NCBI RefSeq assembly: GCF_039634785.1
Contig: NZ_JBBIAB010000034.1
Location: forward strand, 1-34,462
Source: Tistrella mobilis
GTDB taxonomy: Bacteria > Pseudomonadota > Alphaproteobacteria > Tistrellales > Tistrellaceae
Direction: 5' to 3'
DNA: 34,462 nucleotides
How positions within the stretch are numbered: the first letter of the stretch is position 1; each line of letters starts with the position of its first letter. The notes beneath the pieces were generated by a model that ran no database searches, was not told where the DNA came from, and worked only from the letters and a program-made list of their open reading frames with translations. Shown piece by piece: positions 2-34,462 of the stretch. The position numbers were made by a program, and so were the translations under genes.

Positions 2-121
2 GCAGGTCGACGGAAAGAGCTTTCGCCATACAGGCTGGCCTCCTTCTCCAGCCTCTATCTTGAATCACAACTGACGGCTGAGGGGAATCCCCTGATTCCT
101 ATGCTGGGTAATTTGCTCTAA
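2..121 (+). CDS. possible C-terminal end of a truncated hypothetical gene (partial at left edge)
   Basis: Reading from base 2, a frame stays open for 39 codons and ends at a TAA at 119-121, about 30 bases before the start of the DUF5615 gene. The visible peptide ends with residues PLIPMLGNLL and matches nothing I recognise. The short spacing and same strand would suit an upstream operon partner, since PIN-like DUF5615 proteins often follow a small antitoxin-like gene. A 39-codon open frame can also arise by chance, and no start is visible in the window, so this is a weak call. Confidence 0.25.
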   Translation, partial: AGRRKELSPYRLASFSSLYLESQLTAEGNPLIPMLGNLL

Positions 122-4484: not shown

Positions 4485-6068
4485 ATGACCACCGACACGC
4501 CGTCCTCTCCCATCCTTCCGGAGGTGACCGCCGCGGGCGGCCTCACCATCGACCTGCTGTTCGCACGTCAGGCCCGCACCACCCCCCGGGCACCGGCCCT
4601 GGCCGATGCCGGGGGCGAGGTCGCCTTCACCTATGACGCGCTCTTCGCCCGGGTGTCGCGGCTGGCCGCCTGGCTGACCGGGCCGGCCGGGCTGAAGCCG
4701 GGCGACCGTTTCGCGGTGCTGGCCGAAAACCGCACCGAATATGTCGAACTGCTGCTCGCGGCCGCGATGAGCGGCACGATCCTGGCCGCGATCAACTGGC
4801 GTCTGGCACCGCCCGAGGTCGCCCATTGCCTGCGCCTGGTCGAACCCGGGCTGATCGTGGCGAGCCCGCGCCATGAGGGCCTTTTGCGTGACGCGGACTG
4901 CGGCGACCTGCCGCATCTGCTCTTCGGCCCGGATTTCGAGGCGATCGCCATGGCGGGGCCGGTGCCGGATCTGCCCGCGGTCACCGGCCCGGAAAGCGGG
5001 CTGGTCATTCTCTACACCAGCGGCACCACCGGTCTGCCCAAGGGCGCGCTGATCAGCCACCGGGCCGAGATCTCCCGGGCGCAGGTGATGGCGATCGACC
5101 ATGCCATTCCGCCCGGGCGCGGCTTCGTCGCCTGGGCGCCGCTCTTCCACATGGTTTCGGCCGATCAGGTGCTGGGCACGCTGATCCGCGGCGGCAAGGT
5201 GACGGTGGTCGACGGCTACGACCCCGAGGCCATCATCCGGGTCGTGGCGCGCGAAAAGATCGGCTGGCTGGTGCTGATGCCCGGCATGATCGAGGATTTC
5301 CTGAACCATCTGGCGGCGGCGGGCCCGATCGAGCCCGATGTGATGGTGATGGGCTGCATGGCCGATCTGGTGCCGCTGGCCCAGATCCAGGCGGTGACCC
5401 GGGCGCTGAACGCCCCCTATCTCAACAGCTTCGGGTCGACCGAGACCGGTGCCGCCCCCGCCTCTGCCGCGGTGATCGGCGTGGGGGAGCTGCCCGCCGG
5501 CCTGTCCAAGCGCCAGAGTTCCGGCTGTGCGGTGCGCCTGGTCGACTGGGACGATACGGAAGTGCCCGACGGCGTGCCGGGCGAGGCGACGATCCGCTCG
5601 CCCTCGCTGTTCTCGGGCTATTGGAACAATCCCAAGGCCACCGCCGAGGATTTCCGCGGCGGCTGGTTCCACATGGGCGACATGTTCGTCCGCAATCCCG
5701 ATGGCAGCCTGGATTTCGTCGACCGGCGCAAATACCTGATCAAATCGGGTGGCGAGAACGTCTATCCGGCCGAAATCGAGCGGCTGATCCTGGCCGGGGC
5801 CGATATCCGCGAGGCGGTGGTGGTGCGTGCGCCCGATGCGCGCTGGGGCGAGGTGCCGGTGGCGGTCGTCGCAGCCGCACCCCACGTAACGCGCGAAGAC
5901 GTGCTCGGCCGCTTGCATGGCCGGCTCGCCCGGTACAAGCTGCCCAAGGCGGTGGTGTTCCTGGATTACGACGCCTTTCCCCGCTCGACCACCGGCAAGA
6001 TCAAGCGCCACGACGTCGAAACCCTGCTCGACAGTCGGGGCCAGCTCAAGGGAGATCCCGCCCCATGA
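4485..6068 (+). CDS. acyl-CoA ligase (AMP-forming, ANL superfamily)
   Basis: This 527-residue cytoplasmic enzyme should activate a carboxylic acid with ATP and CoA to an acyl-CoA. The ATP-binding P-loop LYTSGTTGLPKG lies near residues 174-185. GYWNNPKATAEDFRGGWFHM with the GD motif follows near 376-397. The hinge region KSGGENVYPAEIE is near 420, and the adenylation lysine is in STTGKIKRH near residue 502. All catalytic motifs are intact and the length is normal. GGAGG lies seven bases before the ATG. It follows a TRAP binding protein by 22 bases and overlaps the next gene by four bases (ATGA), so import and activation are probably co-expressed. The substrate (fatty, aromatic or other acid) cannot be told from sequence by eye. 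Confidence 0.9.
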   Translation: MTTDTPSSPILPEVTAAGGLTIDLLFARQARTTPRAPALADAGGEVAFTYDALFARVSRLAAWLTGPAGLKPGDRFAVLAENRTEYVELLLAAAMSGTILAAINWRLAPPEVAHCLRLVEPGLIVASPRHEGLLRDADCGDLPHLLFGPDFEAIAMAGPVPDLPAVTGPESGLVILYTSGTTGLPKGALISHRAEISRAQVMAIDHAIPPGRGFVAWAPLFHMVSADQVLGTLIRGGKVTVVDGYDPEAIIRVVAREKIGWLVLMPGMIEDFLNHLAAAGPIEPDVMVMGCMADLVPLAQIQAVTRALNAPYLNSFGSTETGAAPASAAVIGVGELPAGLSKRQSSGCAVRLVDWDDTEVPDGVPGEATIRSPSLFSGYWNNPKATAEDFRGGWFHMGDMFVRNPDGSLDFVDRRKYLIKSGGENVYPAEIERLILAGADIREAVVVRAPDARWGEVPVAVVAAAPHVTREDVLGRLHGRLARYKLPKAVVFLDYDAFPRSTTGKIKRHDVETLLDSRGQLKGDPAP

Positions 6069-6907
6069 CCACAGCATTCGGATCCGCAGCCGACGTCTCA
6101 ACCAATGGTTATGTCGACGGCTTCGCCGAAGGCGCCGTGCTGCTGGAGCGCCGCGGCCCCGTCGCCTGGGTGCGGATGAACATGGCCGAGAAGCGCAATG
6201 CCATGTCGGAAGCGCTGGTGCAGGGTCTTGCCCGCGCCGTCGATGCGGTGGAGGCCGATCCGGGCTTCCGGGTGATGGTCATCACCGGCTCCGGGCCCGC
6301 CTTTTCGGCCGGCGGTGACCTCGCCCTGTTCCAGCGGCTGGTGGGCAGCGGCACGCTCGACACCTTCGACACCTATCTTGAGCGTGGCCGGGCGATGTTC
6401 ACCCGGATCGAGCAGTTCCGCCGCCCGGTGATCGCCGCGGTCAACGGCGTTACCGTCGCCGGCGGGCTGGAGCTGATGCTGACCGCCGACCTGGTCTATG
6501 CGGCGGAAACTGCCCGGATCGGCGACGGCCATGTGAAGTTCGGCGTGATGCCCGGCGGCGGCTCCACCGCCCGGCTGTCGCGGCGGCTGCCCTTCAATGT
6601 GGCGAGCGAGCTGCTGCTGACCGGCCGTCTCGCCGACCCCCGCGAACTCGCCGCCCATGGCCTGGTCAATGCCGTGCTGGCCGACGACGCGCTGGAAGCC
6701 CATGTCCAGCAGGTGGCCGAAACCATCGCCCGCCACAGCGCCGACGGCATCGCCCGGATCAAGGCCCTGCATGCCCGCGCCCGCGATCGCAGCCTGGACG
6801 ACGCGCTCGCGACCGAGGTCCGCGCCCTGCTGGACTATGCCCGCGGCCCCGATCTGCTCGAAGGGCTGACCGCCTTCGTGGAAAAGCGGGCGCCGCGGTT
6901 CAGGTAA
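6065..6907 (+). CDS. enoyl-CoA hydratase/isomerase (crotonase) family protein
   Basis: This 280-residue protein acts on a CoA thioester. The two oxyanion-hole segments, AFSAGGDLALF (from residue 79) and AAVNGVTVAGGLELM (from residue 124), are intact. Aligned by eye to rat crotonase without gaps, the first catalytic glutamate is kept (Glu136, equivalent to Glu144). The position of Glu164 is His156 in the sequence GDGHVKFG. Loss of the second glutamate argues against a standard enoyl-CoA hydratase and leaves isomerase, hydrolase, dehalogenase or another crotonase chemistry open. The ATG overlaps the ligase stop (ATGA), so the two are coupled. The product of the upstream ligase is the likely substrate. 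Confidence 0.88.
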   Translation: MTTAFGSAADVSTNGYVDGFAEGAVLLERRGPVAWVRMNMAEKRNAMSEALVQGLARAVDAVEADPGFRVMVITGSGPAFSAGGDLALFQRLVGSGTLDTFDTYLERGRAMFTRIEQFRRPVIAAVNGVTVAGGLELMLTADLVYAAETARIGDGHVKFGVMPGGGSTARLSRRLPFNVASELLLTGRLADPRELAAHGLVNAVLADDALEAHVQQVAETIARHSADGIARIKALHARARDRSLDDALATEVRALLDYARGPDLLEGLTAFVEKRAPRFR

Positions 6908-6927
6908 GCCCGTGCTCTCTGGTGGCC

Positions 6928-7809
6928 CTACGCTCTATGATGCTTGGGTGACAGGCCATAGGTCTTCTTGAACGCGGCGGTGAAGCTGGTCGGGCTGGTA
7001 TAGCCGGCGATCCAGGCCGCCTGGGCGATCGGCACGCCGTCGCGTTCAAGCGCCGCCCGGGCGGCCTCCAGCCGCTTCAGGCGGATGAATTCATAGACCG
7101 TCATCCCCAGATGTTCCTTGAAATGCCGCTGGATCGACGAGGTGCTGAGGCCCATTTCGCGGGCGATGCCCTCGACGGTCAGCGGCCGGCCCAGATTCTC
7201 AAGAATATGGTCGTGGATACGGGCGATCTGCCGGCGGCTCATCTCCACCGGTTTCGGCGTATCGTCGCCGGTGGCGTCCAGCATCTGCAGGCAGGCTTCG
7301 CACATCAATTGCAGGGCGTGCGACTTGCGATAAAGCGTGCGTAGCTCGCCCTGCATCGGCACCGGCGGTTCCAGAATGCGCTCGGCTAGCTGGATCAGCG
7401 CCCGGCCGGGCTCGAAGCTGAACCGGTTCAGATGGCCGGCGAAGAAGCGGCGCAGCGCCGGCATGCCGTCTTCGGGGCAGCTGCGCATCAGATCCTGCAT
7501 CCAGGGCAGGGGCGCCGAAACCATCACCTTGCGCATCTCCACATCGCTGTCGTTCACGAAGCGGACCAGGCAGGGCCGGGCGACGTTGAGCATGAAGACC
7601 TGCGGCACCGAGATGTCGGCATCGCCGGCATCCAGGCGGAAATGCTCGCCATCCATCACGAAATGCTGCGCGCCCTGCAACAGCAGGATCACCATGAATT
7701 TCGGCCAGACCTGATGCAGCTCCTCGTCGGGCGTGCAGGTCGCAAGGCCGGTCATCGTGCCGACGAACAGATCGTTGGGAATGCCCAGGGCGGGCGCAGT
7801 CTCCTGCAT
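6928..7809 (-). CDS. AraC-family transcriptional regulator of the siderophore receptor locus
   Basis: This 293-residue DNA-binding regulator has an N-terminal ligand-sensing region and a C-terminal pair of helix-turn-helix motifs (about residues 190-293). The first HTH is RPLTVEGIAREMGLSTSSIQRHFK. The second is in the conserved PIAQAAWIAGYTSPTSFTAAFKK, ending with the usual YGLSP. It is divergent from the TonB-dependent receptor, with a ~200-base shared control region. This is the arrangement of PchR-type activators, which bind a ferric siderophore and switch on the matching receptor. Effector and targets are inferred from position. The ATG at 7809 starts a protein of normal AraC length. Confidence 0.88.
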   Translation of the reverse strand: MQETAPALGIPNDLFVGTMTGLATCTPDEELHQVWPKFMVILLLQGAQHFVMDGEHFRLDAGDADISVPQVFMLNVARPCLVRFVNDSDVEMRKVMVSAPLPWMQDLMRSCPEDGMPALRRFFAGHLNRFSFEPGRALIQLAERILEPPVPMQGELRTLYRKSHALQLMCEACLQMLDATGDDTPKPVEMSRRQIARIHDHILENLGRPLTVEGIAREMGLSTSSIQRHFKEHLGMTVYEFIRLKRLEAARAALERDGVPIAQAAWIAGYTSPTSFTAAFKKTYGLSPKHHRA

Positions 7810-7939
7810 GTGAACACCTTGATCACGCTTGGGTCGGGTCAGGTGTCCTCACGACGCTGCCGTCGTGCCTGCGCAGGTCTTTGCCGCTTTTGAAGAGGTC
7901 ATGTCGCACGACAGCTCCGACACCCTAGCCCTAAACATC

Positions 7940-7958
7940 GGAAAGTCAATGGACTTCC
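7940..7958. promoter_or_regulatory. imperfect inverted repeat in the AraC/receptor control region
   Basis: GGAAAGTC (7940-7947) and GACTTCC (7952-7958) are inverted apart from one extra A in the left arm, separated by AATG. A second bulged GC-rich dyad (CGCCCTG/CAGGGGGCG) follows at about 7961-7978 and would form a leader hairpin. The first dyad lies about 50-70 bases before the receptor ATG and is the best operator candidate. I saw no convincing Fur box here. Confidence 0.3.
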
Positions 7959-8009
7959 ACCGCCCTGGCAGGGGGCGGAGGGGCGTTCGCGTATGTCGGA
8001 GAACAACGG

Positions 8010-10202
8010 ATGGCAAGCATGGCGTATCGGGCACTGGCTGGAAAATGGGCGTTTTCCGTGTCCTGGGCAGCACTTCTGGTCGCAGGGCCGGCCGCGGCGG
8101 AAGACGCGGTCCGGCTCGATGCCCTGAAGGTGGAGGAACGGGCGACCGAAAACGGCACCGGACCGGTGGGCGGCTATGTTGCCCGGCAGAGTCGCACCGG
8201 CACCAAAACCGACAGCCCGATCGCCAGAACGCCGCAGAGCGTGTCGGTCGTCGGCCGGGAGCAGATGCAGGCCCAGCAGGTGGAAAGCGTCGCCGAGGCG
8301 CTGCGCTACACCCCGGGCGTCTTCGCCGAGTATCGCGGCGCCTCCAATCTGCGCGACGAAATTTTCGTCCGCGGCTTCTATTACGTGCCGAAATATCTGG
8401 ACGGGCTGTTTCTGGGCGGTGACCTCTCCTACGCCAGGATCGAACCCTATCTTCTGGAGCGGGTGGAACTGCTCGCCGGCCCGTCCTCGGTGCTTTACGG
8501 CCAGGCCAATCCGGGCGGGCTGGTCAACATGGTCAGCAAGACGCCGACCGACACGCCCCTTTACGAAACCGAGGTGTCGATCGGCACCGGCCATCACTAT
8601 GGTGCCGCCTTCGACCTTTCCGACCGGCTGACGGCCGATGGCCGCTGGGCGGGACGGCTGGCGGTGACCGGGCTCAACCGCGATCTTCAGGAGGACGGCG
8701 CCGAACGCCGTGCCTTTGCCGTGGCGCCCTCGCTGCGCTGGACCGATCACGAGGCAACCAGTCTCACCATCCTCGGCGGCTATCAGAACGAGCCCGATGC
8801 CGGCTATCGCAACTTTCTGGATGCGGCCGGTACCATCACGCCGATCCCGGGCTATGGCTATGTCCCGCGCGATTTCTTCGTCTCGGACACCGGGTTCGAG
8901 AAGTTCGAGCGCGAACAGCTCTGGATCGGCTATCAGCTGGAGTATGCGGTCTCGGACGCGCTGAGCCTGCGCCAGAACGCCCGTTATCATCAGGTCGAGA
9001 CCACGCACCACACCCTGATCTATGGCAGCGCCAGTGCCAGCCCGATCACCGGGGCCGATACCATCTACAGCCGCAGCCTGACCGGCGGGACCGACGACTG
9101 GCGACAGTTTGCGATCGACAACCAGGCCGAATACCGCTTCGGCACCGGTGCGGCGGCCCATACCCTGCTGGCCGGCCTGGATTATCGCCACCGCACCCGC
9201 GACTACATCTGGGGCCGCAACCGCAATGTGCCGTCGATCGATGTCGCCAACCCGGTCTATGGCGGTTTCGATTTCTCGTCCCTCGATCTCACCACCACCG
9301 ACGATCAGGATCTGACCGCGGACCAGTTCGGGCTCTATCTGCAGGACCAGATCGAGATCGGCGGGTTCAGCCTGCTCGCCGGGCTGCGGTATGATCGCGC
9401 CTCGACCGATATCGACGACAACTTCAACAGCCTGTCCTATTCCTACGACGACAACGCGCTGACCTGGCGGGTGGGCGCGCTCTACACCTTCGCCAACGGC
9501 ATCGCGCCTTACGTCTCGTATTCCACCTCGTTCGAGCCGTCGCTCTACGCCCCCGAAGCGAGTGCGCCCGCCTTCGACCCCACCACCGCCCGACAGGTCG
9601 AACTCGGCGTCAAATATGCGCCCGAGGGGACCGGCCTGCTGCTGACCGCCGCGGTCTATGATCTGCGCCAGAAGGATGTGGTGATGAGCGCCTGGGATCC
9701 CGGCCTCGGCCGGTCGGTCTATTCCCAGGTCGGCGAGGTCCATAATCAGGGGCTGGAGCTGTCGGCCAAGGCCGAGCTGGACGAGAATCTCTCGATGGTG
9801 GCGAGCTATTCCTATATCGACTCGACCATCGAGGACTCGGTGACCGCGGCCGAGATCGGCCGGACGCCGGCGCGGGTGCCTGCCCATACTGCATCGCTCT
9901 GGGCCGATTACCGCTTCACCGACGGTGCCGTCCAGGGGCTGGGCCTTGGCGCGGGTGTGCGCTATATCGGCACCAGCCAGGGCAACAACACCAATGACTT
10001 CGAGGTGCCGGCCGTGACCCTGTTCGACGCCTCGGCGAGCTACGATTTCTCGGGCCTGGGTGGCAGCTGGCAGGGCGTGTCGGTGCAGGTCAATGCCAAG
10101 AACCTGACCGACGAGACCTATGTCGCCTCCTGCGCCAGCGCCTATGCCTGTTTCTACGGCGAGGGCCGGACGGTGGTCGCCACCCTGAAGAAGCGCTGGT
10201 GA
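8010..10202 (+). CDS. TonB-dependent siderophore receptor
   Basis: This 730-residue outer-membrane protein takes up a ferric siderophore using TonB energy. A signal peptide ends near residue 30 (GPAAA/EDAV). The plug domain (about residues 60-170) contains RTPQSVSVVGREQM, RYTPGVFAEYRG, DEIFVRGF and YGQANPGGLVNMVSK, hallmarks of the FhuA/FpvA siderophore-receptor group. The rest is beta-barrel, and the protein ends with an aromatic residue (KKRW), as outer-membrane barrels do. No N-terminal signalling domain is present, so surface signalling through an anti-sigma factor is unlikely, in line with control by the divergent AraC regulator. GGAG lies eight bases before the ATG at 8010. The next gene, a Fes-like esterase, overlaps by four bases. 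The ligand is unknown. Confidence 0.92.
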   Translation: MASMAYRALAGKWAFSVSWAALLVAGPAAAEDAVRLDALKVEERATENGTGPVGGYVARQSRTGTKTDSPIARTPQSVSVVGREQMQAQQVESVAEALRYTPGVFAEYRGASNLRDEIFVRGFYYVPKYLDGLFLGGDLSYARIEPYLLERVELLAGPSSVLYGQANPGGLVNMVSKTPTDTPLYETEVSIGTGHHYGAAFDLSDRLTADGRWAGRLAVTGLNRDLQEDGAERRAFAVAPSLRWTDHEATSLTILGGYQNEPDAGYRNFLDAAGTITPIPGYGYVPRDFFVSDTGFEKFEREQLWIGYQLEYAVSDALSLRQNARYHQVETTHHTLIYGSASASPITGADTIYSRSLTGGTDDWRQFAIDNQAEYRFGTGAAAHTLLAGLDYRHRTRDYIWGRNRNVPSIDVANPVYGGFDFSSLDLTTTDDQDLTADQFGLYLQDQIEIGGFSLLAGLRYDRASTDIDDNFNSLSYSYDDNALTWRVGALYTFANGIAPYVSYSTSFEPSLYAPEASAPAFDPTTARQVELGVKYAPEGTGLLLTAAVYDLRQKDVVMSAWDPGLGRSVYSQVGEVHNQGLELSAKAELDENLSMVASYSYIDSTIEDSVTAAEIGRTPARVPAHTASLWADYRFTDGAVQGLGLGAGVRYIGTSQGNNTNDFEVPAVTLFDASASYDFSGLGGSWQGVSVQVNAKNLTDETYVASCASAYACFYGEGRTVVATLKKRW

Positions 10203-11806
10203 GCCGGCCGATGATCCGTCGGGCACTCACCCTTATGCTTCCCCTTCTGGTCCTGCTCGCCATCCCGGCCGCCGATGCGGCCGGGATGCGCGAGACCGGC
10301 GGCACGCTCGCCACCGGCGGGACCGCGCTCATCGACCTCGGGGCGGCGCCGGGCGACTATCTCCGCGGTCGTCTGACCGTCGAAAGCGGCCGCTTCGATC
10401 TCGATCTGGTCGATGGCGCGGGTGTGCCGCTCCGCCGTTTCGGCAGCGACATTCCGACCGCCCGGAGCTTCCACCATGTCGTGGGCGCCGCGGATGAACG
10501 CCTGCAACTCCGCGCGGTCGAGGCCGGACGCTGGCGGATCGACCTGGAACCGCCCATCCCCATGGCGGAACAGCGGGTCCCTGAACCGGAACCGCTGAGC
10601 CCGGCCATCGCGGCCCTTGCGCGCGATCTCGCCCGCGGTGGCGATACCGCCGGCTTCTGGGCGGACATGGCCGCGCGCGGCACGCCGCTGGTCGAGCCGG
10701 CCGACCGCCCCGACCGGCGGATCGTCACCTTCCTCGCCCGCGGGGCCCGGCACAATGTCCGGCTGTTCGGCGGGCCCGGCACCGGCCATGACGAGTTGCA
10801 GCGTCTGGGCAACGCCGATGTCTGGTATCGCAGCTATGTCCTGCCCTCGGACACGCGGCTCGCCTATCAGCTGGCCCCGGATGTGCCGGAATTTGCCGGC
10901 ACGGCGCGTGAACGCCGGGTCGCGGTTCTGGCGACGGCGGCGGCCGATCCGCTCAACCGCCATCCCTGGCCGGCGGATGCCCCCGATATCTGGGCGCGCG
11001 ACTCCCTCCTGGTGCTGGATGATGCGCCGGCCCAGCCCTGGGCGGATGCCGATGCCTCCGTGCCGCAGGGCCGGCTCGATCAGCTGCGGCTGACCAGCCG
11101 CAGTCTCGGCAATACCCGTGACGTCACCCTCTACCGTCCGGCCGGGTTTGATCCGGCGCGGCCCGATACCGTCCTGCTGATCCTGTTCGACGGCCGGGAC
11201 TATCGGCAGAAGGTGCCGGTGCCGCGGATCCTGGATGCGATGATCGCCGCCGGGGTGATCCCGCCGGTGGTGGCGGTGCTGGTCGACAGCCTGGACCAGG
11301 ACACCCGCGGCCGCGAACTGCCGGGCAATCCGGATTTCGCTGACATGCTGGCCCATGAATTGCTGCCGATGGTGCGCGCCGCGGCCGGGTTCGATCCCGA
11401 TCCGGCCCGCACCGTGCTCTCGGGGTCGAGCTTCGGCGGCCTGGCCGCGATGACCGCGGCACTCCGCCATCCGGGGGCCTTCGGCAATGTGCTCTCGATG
11501 TCGGGCTCGTTCTGGTGGAGCCCGCCGGACACGCCCGAAACCGGGCGGGAATGGGTGGCAGGCCGGGTCGCGGCGGCGGCCATGCCGCCGCCGCTCCGGG
11601 TTTTCCTCGCCGCCGGGATCTACGAAACCTCGGGCGACGGGGTGACGGCCTCGATCCTCGACACCAACCGCCATCTGCGCGATGTGCTGATGGCGAAGGG
11701 CGTCTGGGTGCGCCATCGCGAATACGCCACCGGCCATGACTACGTCGCCTGGCAGGGGGTGCTTTCCGACGGGCTGGTGGCGCTGTTCGGGCGCGACCAG
11801 CCCTGA
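10199..11806 (+). CDS. secreted Fes/IroE-like siderophore esterase
   Basis: This 535-residue alpha/beta hydrolase resembles enterochelin esterase. The N-terminal half is a Fes-type beta-sandwich region. The C-terminal half carries the esterase signature VLSGSSFGGLAAM (nucleophile near Ser411), the family segment SMSGSFWWSPP, and the catalytic histidine in TGHDYVAW near residue 511. Unlike cytoplasmic Fes it starts with a hydrophobic signal peptide (ending ADAAG), so it is probably periplasmic, like IroE. The GTG at 10199 overlaps the receptor stop (GTGA); an in-frame ATG at 10211 is also possible and keeps the signal peptide. The operon suggests it trims or opens the siderophore brought in by the receptor. 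A catecholate ester substrate is inference. Confidence 0.83.
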   Translation: MSRPMIRRALTLMLPLLVLLAIPAADAAGMRETGGTLATGGTALIDLGAAPGDYLRGRLTVESGRFDLDLVDGAGVPLRRFGSDIPTARSFHHVVGAADERLQLRAVEAGRWRIDLEPPIPMAEQRVPEPEPLSPAIAALARDLARGGDTAGFWADMAARGTPLVEPADRPDRRIVTFLARGARHNVRLFGGPGTGHDELQRLGNADVWYRSYVLPSDTRLAYQLAPDVPEFAGTARERRVAVLATAAADPLNRHPWPADAPDIWARDSLLVLDDAPAQPWADADASVPQGRLDQLRLTSRSLGNTRDVTLYRPAGFDPARPDTVLLILFDGRDYRQKVPVPRILDAMIAAGVIPPVVAVLVDSLDQDTRGRELPGNPDFADMLAHELLPMVRAAAGFDPDPARTVLSGSSFGGLAAMTAALRHPGAFGNVLSMSGSFWWSPPDTPETGREWVAGRVAAAAMPPPLRVFLAAGIYETSGDGVTASILDTNRHLRDVLMAKGVWVRHREYATGHDYVAWQGVLSDGLVALFGRDQP

Positions 11807-11811
11807 CCGGT

Positions 11812-12759
11812 TCAGCGGCCGACCGGCTCCCAGCCATAGGCCGCACCATCGCTGCCCGGCGTCACCCGGCCGATGCCGGGGAAGGTGATATGGGCGCCGG
11901 CCACCAGATAGCCTTTGGCGGCGGCGTCTTCCATCGCCGCCAGGCGGCTCTGGCGGGCGGCGTCCTGGTCGACGTCGAAGTCGATGGTGACCTCGGGCTC
12001 GGCGAACTGGACGAATTCGCCATGGGTGATGTCGCCCCAGACCACCAGCTTTTCGCCCCCATCGCTGACCACGATCGAGGAATGGCCCGGGGTATGGCCG
12101 GCGCGCAGGATCGACTGCAGCCCCGGCACCGGGTCGGCGCCGTCGGCGAAGGTCGCGAAACGGCCGGTTTCGCGATAGGGGGCCGTCATGGCGATCGCCT
12201 CGTCGAAGCCGCGCCGGGCGGCCTCGGGGGCGGCGGCGCGGGCCGCGTCGCTCAGCCAGTAGGCGGCGTCGCGTTCGGCCACATGCAGCCGCGCCTTCGG
12301 GAACACGGCCTTGCCGTTGCGGGTCAGCCCGCCCGAATGGTCGGCATGGATATGGGTCAGCACGATGTCGTCGATCTCGTCCGGCGTATGGCCGGCGGCC
12401 TTCAGGCTTTCGGCCAGATGGCCGAGCTTCGGCCCCAGCAGATCGCCGGTGCCGGTATCGATCAGCACCAGCCGGCCATCGGGCATGGCGACCAGATAGG
12501 TGTTCACCGCCAGCGTCACCGGCGACTGCTTGCCGGCGCGGGCCAGCGCCGCTTCGATCTGGGGCCTGGGCTCGCCGCGCATGATATCGGCCAGCGGCAC
12601 CGGGATCTGACCGTCGGACAGGGCGGTGACGCTGATCCGGCCGATGTCGATGTGATAGGGGGCGGAAAGCGGGTCATCCGCGGCGGCGGGGCCCGCGAGA
12701 ACCGAAAGGCCGAGCAGGCTGGCGAAGGCGAGCGAGGCGGCGAGGGGGGTCTTCGACAT
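11812..12759 (-). CDS. secreted metallo-beta-lactamase-fold hydrolase (methyl-parathion-hydrolase-like)
   Basis: This 315-residue protein has a signal peptide ending near residue 27 (GPAAA/DDPL), so it acts in the periplasm or outside the cell. The zinc ligands are complete: HIHADH at residues 136-141, His222 in AGHTPGH, Asp243 in WGDITHG and His290 in AHITFPG. The H-x-x-FPG-x-G ending resembles methyl parathion hydrolase and related lactonase or esterase enzymes more than true beta-lactamases. The natural substrate is unknown. It is divergent from a LysR regulator that probably controls it, and ends tail-to-tail six bases from the esterase gene. Confidence 0.85.
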   Translation of the reverse strand: MSKTPLAASLAFASLLGLSVLAGPAAADDPLSAPYHIDIGRISVTALSDGQIPVPLADIMRGEPRPQIEAALARAGKQSPVTLAVNTYLVAMPDGRLVLIDTGTGDLLGPKLGHLAESLKAAGHTPDEIDDIVLTHIHADHSGGLTRNGKAVFPKARLHVAERDAAYWLSDAARAAAPEAARRGFDEAIAMTAPYRETGRFATFADGADPVPGLQSILRAGHTPGHSSIVVSDGGEKLVVWGDITHGEFVQFAEPEVTIDFDVDQDAARQSRLAAMEDAAAKGYLVAGAHITFPGIGRVTPGSDGAAYGWEPVGR

Positions 12760-32106: not shown

Positions 32107-33648
32107 TCATTCTGCGGCGGCAATGCCGGTGACGGGCAGGCTGTGCATGAAGTCGTCCACGGCTGCCCGCTGGTCTTCCGACAGATGCAGGCCGCGCTTG
32201 GTGCGCCGCCACAGAACATCGTCGGCCGTCCGCGCCCATTCGTGGGTCACCAGATAGCGGATTTCGCTTTCGGTCAGATCCGCACCGAAATCGCGCCCCA
32301 GATCCGCCTTGCTTCGCGCGGATCCAAGGATCATCCGCGCCCGTGTGCCATACAGCCTCACCAGTCTGCGGCCAAAACCGTCGTCCAGGAAGCCGTATTC
32401 GGCACGCAGCCGGGCGACCTCTGACTCGAAACCGGTGGCGGGGAAGTCGCCGCCGGGCAGGGTGGCGGTGGCGGTCCATGCCGGGCCGCGGGCGCCCAGC
32501 TCCGCCTCGATCTTCTCCAGCGCCGCCTCGGCCAGGCGCCGATAGGTGGTGATCTTGCCGCCGAAGACGTTCAGCATCGGCGCGCCGTTGCCGGGCGCGT
32601 CCGGCCCGTGCTCCACCTTCAGCACATAGTCGCGCGTGGCTTCCTGCGCCTTCGACGCACCGTCGTCATAAAGCGGCCGCACGCCGGAATAGGTCCAGAC
32701 GATGTCCTCGCGCCGCACCGGCTCGGCGAAATACTCGCTGGCCGCGGCACACAGATAGTCGATCTCGCCTTCGGTGATCCGGATGTCCTTCGGGTCACCC
32801 TTGAAATCCTGGTCGGTGGTGCCGATCAGGGTGAAGTCGTCTTCATAGGGGATGGCGAAGATGATCCGGCCGTCGGAATTCTGGAAGAAGAAGGCGCGCG
32901 GATCGTTGAACTTCGCCCGCACCACGATGTGGCTGCCCTGAACCAGGCGGACATTGCGGACGTCGTTGCGGGCCAGCGTGCCCTGCAGCACCTGATCGAC
33001 CCAGGGGCCGGCGGCATTGATCAGCATGCGCGCCCGGAAGCTGCGGGTGACGTCGGGGTGGTCGACGCTCTGCACCGTCACCGCCCAAAGCTCACCCTCG
33101 CGCCGCGCCGAGGTCACCCGGGTGCGGACCATCAGCTCCACGCCGCGGGCAGCGGCATCCATGGCGTTCAGCACCACCAGCCGGGCATCATTCACCCAGC
33201 AGTCGGAATATTCGAAAGCGGTTCGGAACAGCGGCTTCAGCGGTTTCGCGGCCGGATCGTTCCGAAGATCCAGCGTGCGCGTGGCCGGCAGCTGCTTGCG
33301 GCCGCCGATGTGATCGTAGAGGAACAGGCCCAGCCGCAGCAGCCAGCGCGGTCTCAGCCCCTTGTGATGGGGCAGCACGAAGCGCATCGGCCAGATGATG
33401 TGCGGGGCATTGCGCCACAGCACCTCGCGCTCCATCAGCGCCTCGCGCACCAGCCGGAATTCATAATGTTCCAGATAGCGCAGGCCGCCATGGATCAGCT
33501 TGGTGGAGCCGGAAGAGGTGCCCGAGGCGAGATCGTTCATCTCGGCCAGCGCGACCGAATACCCGCGCCCGGCAGCATCACGCGCGATGCCGCAGCCGTT
33601 TATGCCGCCGCCGATGACGAAAATGTCATGGACCGGATCGCCCGTCAC
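32107..33648 (-). CDS. glpD: glycerol-3-phosphate dehydrogenase (FAD-dependent)
   Basis: This 513-residue membrane-associated flavoenzyme oxidises sn-glycerol-3-phosphate to dihydroxyacetone phosphate and passes electrons to quinone. The FAD fold DIFVIGGGINGCGIARDAAG lies at the N-terminus, followed by the GlpD signature SSGSTKLIHGGLRYLEHYEF (about residues 45-64). The substrate-site segment GVRPLYDDGA and the C-terminal DAO_C domain with HEWARTADDVLWRRTKRGL are intact. I chose the GTG at 33648 because GGGGAGGGAAGA lies just upstream on the minus strand; the frame opens nine codons earlier at a TTG. It is the first gene of the glycerol import operon. glpK and glpR are not in the window. Confidence 0.93.
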   Translation of the reverse strand: MTGDPVHDIFVIGGGINGCGIARDAAGRGYSVALAEMNDLASGTSSGSTKLIHGGLRYLEHYEFRLVREALMEREVLWRNAPHIIWPMRFVLPHHKGLRPRWLLRLGLFLYDHIGGRKQLPATRTLDLRNDPAAKPLKPLFRTAFEYSDCWVNDARLVVLNAMDAAARGVELMVRTRVTSARREGELWAVTVQSVDHPDVTRSFRARMLINAAGPWVDQVLQGTLARNDVRNVRLVQGSHIVVRAKFNDPRAFFFQNSDGRIIFAIPYEDDFTLIGTTDQDFKGDPKDIRITEGEIDYLCAAASEYFAEPVRREDIVWTYSGVRPLYDDGASKAQEATRDYVLKVEHGPDAPGNGAPMLNVFGGKITTYRRLAEAALEKIEAELGARGPAWTATATLPGGDFPATGFESEVARLRAEYGFLDDGFGRRLVRLYGTRARMILGSARSKADLGRDFGADLTESEIRYLVTHEWARTADDVLWRRTKRGLHLSEDQRAAVDDFMHSLPVTGIAAAE

Positions 33649-33709
33649 CCGTCTTCCCTCCCCAGGCTTTCGCAACGCAGCATTCTCTGTGCCGCTCGAA
33701 AGTCTGTGA

Positions 33710-33744: not shown

Positions 33745-33893
33745 ACTCGCGGCGCGCCGGCCGCGTGTGCAGGTCGGTGCGATATGCGCGTTAGTGATGA
33801 CAGGCGCGCAAACCCATGCAACCATCCGGCATATGTCACGTCATTTTCGGGCGAGAGCCGCCCGGACATGACCGTTTCGCGGGAAAGTCGTCC

Positions 33894-34202
33894 ATGTCAG
33901 CCGCCTTCAGACCGTCCGACGTCATCACTGCCCGTTTCGAACTCTCGGCGCCGATGTTCTCGGGCCAGGAGGGCGACAAGGGCCCGGCCGAAATCCGCCC
34001 GACCGAAATCAAGGCCGCGCTGCGCTTCTGGTGGCGCGCGCTCGCCTGGGGACGCGGCGTGCGCACGCCTCAGGCGCTGAAAGAGCAGGAAGACATCCTG
34101 TTCGGCGCGGCGGCGGATGAGGGCCGGAACGGCGCCGGCGGGCGGGGGCAGGGGGCGTTTCTGTTGAGAGTAATACCAATCTGCAATAATCAGAACCCAT
34201 GA
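33894..34202 (+). pseudogene. cmr1: cmr1, N-terminal fragment (type III-B CRISPR RAMP protein) truncated by an IS element
   Basis: About 92 native codons match the N-terminal RAMP domain of Cmr1, a subunit of the type III-B (Cmr) RNA-guided effector complex: FELSAPMFSGQEGDKGPAEI, then RPTEIKAALRFWWRAL, then a conserved EDILFG. Cmr1 is normally about 300-450 residues, so roughly three quarters are missing. At 34171-34172 (TA) the gene runs into an IS630-type end; the frame continues ten codons into the element and stops at 34200-34202. GGGAAAG lies upstream of the ATG at 33894. The product is almost certainly non-functional as it stands. No other cmr gene or repeat array is in the window. Confidence 0.82.
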
Positions 34203-34333
34203 GCCCAGCACCTCAACCCGATGGACATGATCTTCCATGGCTGGCTGATGAGCTTGTTCCAGACATGGCAGCACAGGCGATGATCTGGTCGTAGGATTCG
34301 AAGATGCGGTTGGACAGCCAGTTGCCACGCATA
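34171..34333 (-). mobile_element. IS630-family element A (end plus transposase C-terminal fragment), interrupted
   Basis: The element's end begins ATACCAAT directly after a TA at 34171-34172 inside cmr1, as expected for IS630, which duplicates TA. Its transposase runs on the minus strand towards this end, and only its last ~48 codons are in place. At 34332-34333 another TA is followed by the end of a second element, so element A is split, and its other part should lie to the right of the window. Confidence 0.75.
34190..34332 (-). pseudogene. IS630-family transposase, C-terminal fragment with frameshift
   Basis: On the minus strand the sequence reads RGNWLSNRIFESYDQIIA, then after an apparent one-base deletion near 34277-34284 continues in another frame as CCHVWNKLISQPWKIMSIG and ends RCWAHGF. 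This is the typical C-terminus of IS630-type transposases. The stop is at 34190-34192. The upstream part is removed by element B at 34332-34333. It cannot make an active transposase. Confidence 0.75.
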
Positions 34334-34462
34334 ATACCAATGAGCGCTGACCCCGACTCACGATAGGGGATTCCCAAGACCCGCGGATTGTGAGTCACTC
34401 TGGCAAACAGCCGGAGCGATCCCCATGGCAGCACCGATCCCCCTTCGCCCTGATTATGACGG
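34334..34462 (+). mobile_element. IS630-family element B, left end (runs off the window)
   Basis: After a TA at 34332-34333 the sequence restarts with ATACCAAT, the same end as element A, then diverges. A 7-bp inverted repeat (GACTCAC 34355-34361, GTGAGTC 34390-34396) lies inside the end. A transposase start follows at 34425. The insertion splits the transposase of element A, so B arrived later. Confidence 0.65.
34425..34462 (+). CDS. IS630-family transposase, first 12 codons (partial at right edge)
   Basis: The ATG at 34425 follows GGAG by eight bases and opens MAAPIPLRPDYD, which resembles the N-terminus of IS630-type transposases. Only 12 full codons are in the window, so this call rests mainly on its position about 90 bases inside an IS630-type end. 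Confidence 0.5.
   Translation, partial: MAAPIPLRPDYD

Follow-up and report, generated by a model that had tools for sequence, protein, structure and literature searches.

A probable remnant of a type III-B CRISPR locus, cut by IS630-family elements, in Tistrella mobilis and its intact counterpart in a sister species

The right end of the stretch of DNA analysed here (the window; 34,462 nucleotides, the entire contig C34 of a draft genome of 62 contigs, G000) very probably carries the left stump of a type III-B CRISPR locus that has decayed through IS630 insertion and loss, and whose remnants have no CRISPR function. The stump lies at the edge of a variable slot that has glpD on one side and cydB on the other and is carried on a large replicon in this Tistrella strain. 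The features of the window that bear on this reading are:

32107..33675, minus strand: glpD, bordering the CRISPR slot on its left (Pfam DAO, 1.5e-64)
33773..33893, no strand: left boundary of the variable slot, with the 5′ flank of cmr1 (limits of homology to G001/pTM2 and G002)
33894..34169, plus strand: cmr1 stump, first 92 codons, type III-B RAMP, broken gene (Pfam, NCBIfam, PADLOC, tblastn, comparison with G002)
34170..34202, plus strand: tail of the stump reading frame, running through into IS sequence up to the stop (comparison of IS boundaries)
34171..34333, minus strand: outer IS630-family element, end fragment, with its TA boundary at 34171-34172 (comparison with other copies)
34332..34462, plus strand: second copy of the outer IS, start only, inserted at TA 34332-34333 in opposite orientation (comparison of copies)

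The reading frame of the stump starts with an ATG at 33894 and its stop ends at 34202; codons 1-92 are cmr1 and the remainder is IS sequence. An earlier reading made from the sequence alone had proposed that the first ~92 codons of cmr1 survive with their own start, and had named a profile search of residues 1-92 as a test that could refute this. In that search RAMP and Cmr1 models were matched: Pfam RAMPs with E = 1.2e-6 and 29.6 bits (cut-off 22.1), NCBIfam Cmr1 with E = 3.5e-6 and 27.3 bits, slightly below the cut-off of 28.65, and PADLOC Cmr1 with 3.4e-9, with Csm3, another RAMP, nearly as good at 1.6e-8. The best proof of identity, at the level of sequence, is the full-length Cmr1 of a sister species (G002), whose beginning equals the stump at 91 of 92 residues (269 of 276 bases in the DNA); tblastn gave an identity of 98.9% along 94 residues. 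The proposal thus holds. A complete cmr1 is absent from the window strain, with residues 1-92 of about 401 present. Among viral contigs and plasmids no close relative of the stump was found; genome contigs yielded one, an Acidobacteriota contig with a cmr1-like stretch followed by a cmr2-like stretch.

We compared the slot in three Tistrella genomes: the window strain, a second strain of the same species (G001, Tistrella mobilis KA081020-065, where the slot lies on pTM2, NC_017966) and the sister species G002. glpD is found at the equivalent place in all three, and the content of the slot differs in each. Homology to pTM2 stops near 33773-33776, while homology to G002 continues through 33773..33893. 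In G001 the slot holds an annotated ImmA/IrrE gene (the gene table of pTM2 is incomplete), and neither stump nor any match to cmr genes was found there. Short 17-base tandem repeats adjoin the ImmA/IrrE gene in this slot (L021 3334-3414).

The sister comparison proposed earlier revealed a complete cmr locus in the equivalent glpD-cydB slot of G002, which together with the matching stump bears out the claim that a type III-B locus once stood in the window. The order in G002 is glpD, cmr1, cmr2/cas10, cmr3, cmr4, cmr5, cmr6, nucC and then cydB on the opposite strand, with these positions (L019):

5344-6549: cmr1 (start chosen manually)
6542-8569: cmr2/cas10
up to 9630: cmr3 (start chosen manually)
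9627-10475: cmr4
about 10475-10870: cmr5 (start chosen manually)
10830-11771: cmr6
11785-12501: nucC

Each of the seven proteins is hit by the PADLOC model expected for it and by a suitable Pfam family (NucC as DUF6602), and five of them score above the NCBIfam cut-off; Cmr3 remains under it (86.1 vs 100.4 bits) and NucC has no NCBIfam match. The Cas10 protein shows the Cmr2_N and palm2 domains of Pfam, its translation contains the GGDD motif, and no HD domain was matched. With cmr1-6 and a Cas10 palm domain the locus classifies as type III-B. No array of at least three repeats was found in the 40 kb around it (L019, L020), and no adaptation gene is among the genes recognised beside it; repeat arrays of G002 are located elsewhere on the contig that carries the intact locus. 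The same genome harbours a second, diverged type III-B locus (G002:C4:3605184-3612027, within L047), whose six cmr proteins are 36-53% identical to those of the first and which gave no nucC match.

In the window, cmr1 breaks off at TA 34171-34172, where an end of an IS630-family element follows. This element is itself interrupted at TA 34332-34333 by the opposite end of a second copy, which runs past the end of contig C34. TA is the target of the IS630 family. Because the window contains only end fragments, the domains were read in other copies: the one on C23 encodes HTH and DDE_3 domains, so that assignment to the IS630 family is based on the DDE_3 transposase of other copies and on the TA boundaries. 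The outer fragment is 89-100% identical to at least 10 other places in the same genome, among the best 40 of 157 candidates. The attribution of the break to an IS630-type element in the sequence-only reading was correct; the single insertion assumed there turned out to be two nested copies.

The cydB flank of the slot is found on another contig, C31, and its adjacency to C34 is suggested by synteny. The first ~120 bases of C31 are the end of a different IS630-family element; in G001 this element has a copy whose protein contains an HTH domain of IS630 type. The same IS630-type end is present at the left end of the window (3-121). Next on C31 comes a reading frame that stays open for 151 codons, up to a stop ending at 576, and encodes a C-terminal CARF domain. 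About 15 bases beyond its end, at C31:592, homology to G002 restarts, at a point that in G002 comes shortly after nucC. The CARF stump is best matched, as judged by its sequence, by membrane (TM-CARF) effectors and not by NucC: PADLOC CARF_2M (the two-TM class) scored 3e-15 and CARF8 TM 6.4e-14, CARF-HEPN models were weaker (from 4.4e-9), and the Csm6 CARF of Pfam, at 0.0024, was below its cut-off. No credible sequence match was found in the PDB (best E 0.33), and a structure predicted from the single sequence had a mean pLDDT of 46.2, too poor for a structure search.

A search of 385 genomes of the class with the CARF stump matched only the window strain and one further genome (G247); there was no match except itself in 142 relatives and none among plasmids. 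Counted from its likely ATG, the relative in G247 has 310 residues; two segments near its N-terminus are hydrophobic, and its CARF domain is C-terminal. The N-terminal membrane part is missing from the stump, and the helices it would have contained are predicted from this relative (L105). In G247 the TM-CARF gene has a type III RAMP gene and one for CARF-RelE as neighbours (L105, L106), so that two different CARF effectors are adjacent in this type III locus, and a regularly spaced repeat, present 48 times, is at most about 5 kb away.

The CARF stump could also have reached the slot in an unrelated insertion, outside the Cmr operon. The slot accepts other cargo, such as the ImmA/IrrE gene of pTM2, and the stump has no match in G001 or G002. 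We nevertheless consider this unlikely: the stump occupies the position that nucC has in G002, directly before the shared right flank, it belongs to a class of type III effectors, and the one relative that the class search yielded adjoins type III genes, with a repeat array about 5 kb away at most. No searched genome pairs a Cmr operon with this CARF gene, and its membership in the Cmr operon is proposed from its position.

The sequence-only reading had further expected the other cmr genes to continue to the right. Of the slot's cargo the right flank has only the CARF stump, and the searches proposed for the Cmr1 C-terminus, Cas10, Cmr3 and RAMPs returned nothing beyond the cmr1 stump in the readable genome, i.e. 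outside ten contigs of 1.0-2.5 kb that read as N. The RAMP profile has one match, the stump itself, and thus none for cmr4 or cmr6; the Cas10 palm (PF22335; 2/2 candidates scored), Cmr3 (PF09700) and the Cmr1 C-terminus (14/14 candidates scored) were not found in this genome. The Cas10 palm profile does match in G001 and G002. With the DNA of the G002 locus as query, only the two flanks matched among the best 40 of 575 candidates; neither cmr5 nor nucC appeared there or in a search of selected stretches (tblastn for cmr5). C49, a short contig that carries one end of an IS, was considered as a possible bridge and contains no cmr gene.

Since the ten small contigs read as N, cmr fragments could be hidden there, and both C34 and C31 end in repeats. 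It is conceivable that cmr2-6 persist in interrupted form between the IS elements, either missing from the draft or scattered over these contigs; we regard this as improbable. Uninterrupted, cmr2-6 measure ~5.2 kb in G002, which would not fit one contig of 1.0-2.5 kb and would be expected to yield a longer, readable one, and neither the profile searches nor, among the best 40 of 575 candidates, the search with the G002 DNA pointed to further pieces. A working type III-B complex that dispenses with Cmr1, an option of the sequence-only reading, is hardly credible: neither a Cas10 palm domain nor another RAMP gene was found in the genome, which contradicts such a complex everywhere but in the small contigs read as N. 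Its other option, a system inactivated by transposition, agrees with the results.

Between the stump and G002 we counted six synonymous differences and one non-synonymous difference (dS 0.091, dN 0.005); the chance of at most one non-synonymous change in seven without selection is 0.0015. The dS of the stump is not above that of cydB (0.113) or glpD (0.202). The low dN and a dS no higher than that of the neighbours indicate that selection acted on cmr1 for the greater part of the period after the two lineages parted. With so low a dS, nothing points to recent acquisition from another genus. Judged from these substitutions, the break of cmr1 is probably recent.

Decay of the type III-B locus probably proceeded as follows. 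By comparison with G002, the intact operon would have encoded Cmr1-6, including a Cas10 with palm domain and GGDD motif and no matched HD. Binding of target RNA would have led to cyclic oligoadenylates and these would have switched on an effector, NucC in G002 and apparently a TM-CARF protein in the lineage of the window strain. An IS630-family element entered cmr1 at the TA that follows codon 92 and was itself hit by another copy, probably in this order; at the other side, a further member of the family cut the effector gene. The genes between the elements would have been deleted or broken up; an IS-mediated deletion is not directly visible because the assembly breaks within the IS.

CRISPR loci wrecked by insertion sequences are ordinary, and the present case is the ordinary decay of a known system, in which the effector difference alone is mildly unusual. 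It is a clear-cut example of decay in a type III CRISPR locus, with the sister species intact at the equivalent site. Tentatively, one Cmr operon, occupying the equivalent slot in both sister species, may have been linked to different cyclic oligoadenylate effectors, NucC and TM-CARF; the effector behind cmr6 would have been swapped, or an ancestral pair of effectors reduced to one, before the window strain lost the system to IS630. Three genomes cannot tell a swap from a loss. The two cmr-bearing slots hint at an exchangeable signalling effector downstream of a Cmr operon that stays the same; if so, a change of effector may require a matching change in the product of Cas10. Judged by titles, we found no paper on CRISPR in Tistrella.

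Other traces of CRISPR are present in the genome of the window strain. A leftover of another locus (G000:C2:162726-163227; L090 2727-3228) comprises two copies of a repeat found in the arrays of G001 and G002 and an apparently truncated beginning of rt-cas1. Separately, G000:C2:187146-188978 (L083 11147-12979) encodes an open RT-Cas1 fusion of 610 aa matched by RT and Cas1 models. Fusion and leftover coexist with no Cas10 palm match in their own genome. At G000:C6:152919-160662 (L085 2920-10663) a Cas1 gene lies downstream of ORFs that by eye resemble a CRISPR operon, presumably of type I-C; no repeat array was found in the downstream stretch searched.

Compared with known systems, the elements at the break share TA boundaries, DDE_3 and HTH domains and many copies in the genome with IS630-family insertion sequences; they differ in the nesting of two copies and are otherwise ordinary. 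Cam1 is described as a TM-CARF protein that binds cA4 (PMC10808066). The C31 stump resembles it, by sequence, in having a membrane-class CARF domain at the C-terminus, as does the G247 relative with its two hydrophobic N-terminal segments followed by CARF; it differs in that the membrane part is missing, and it is a putative effector. VmeCmr of Vibrio metoecus is described as an HD-less III-B complex paired with NucC through cA3, encoded on a prophage by a locus that has cas6 (PMC8682760). From this system the window strain differs in having kept only a stump, and G002 in that its locus occupies the glpD-cydB slot and showed no array of at least three repeats in 40 kb; G002 resembles it in cmr1-6 with an adjacent nucC, in lacking an adaptation gene among its recognised neighbours and in a Cas10 in which no HD domain is matched.
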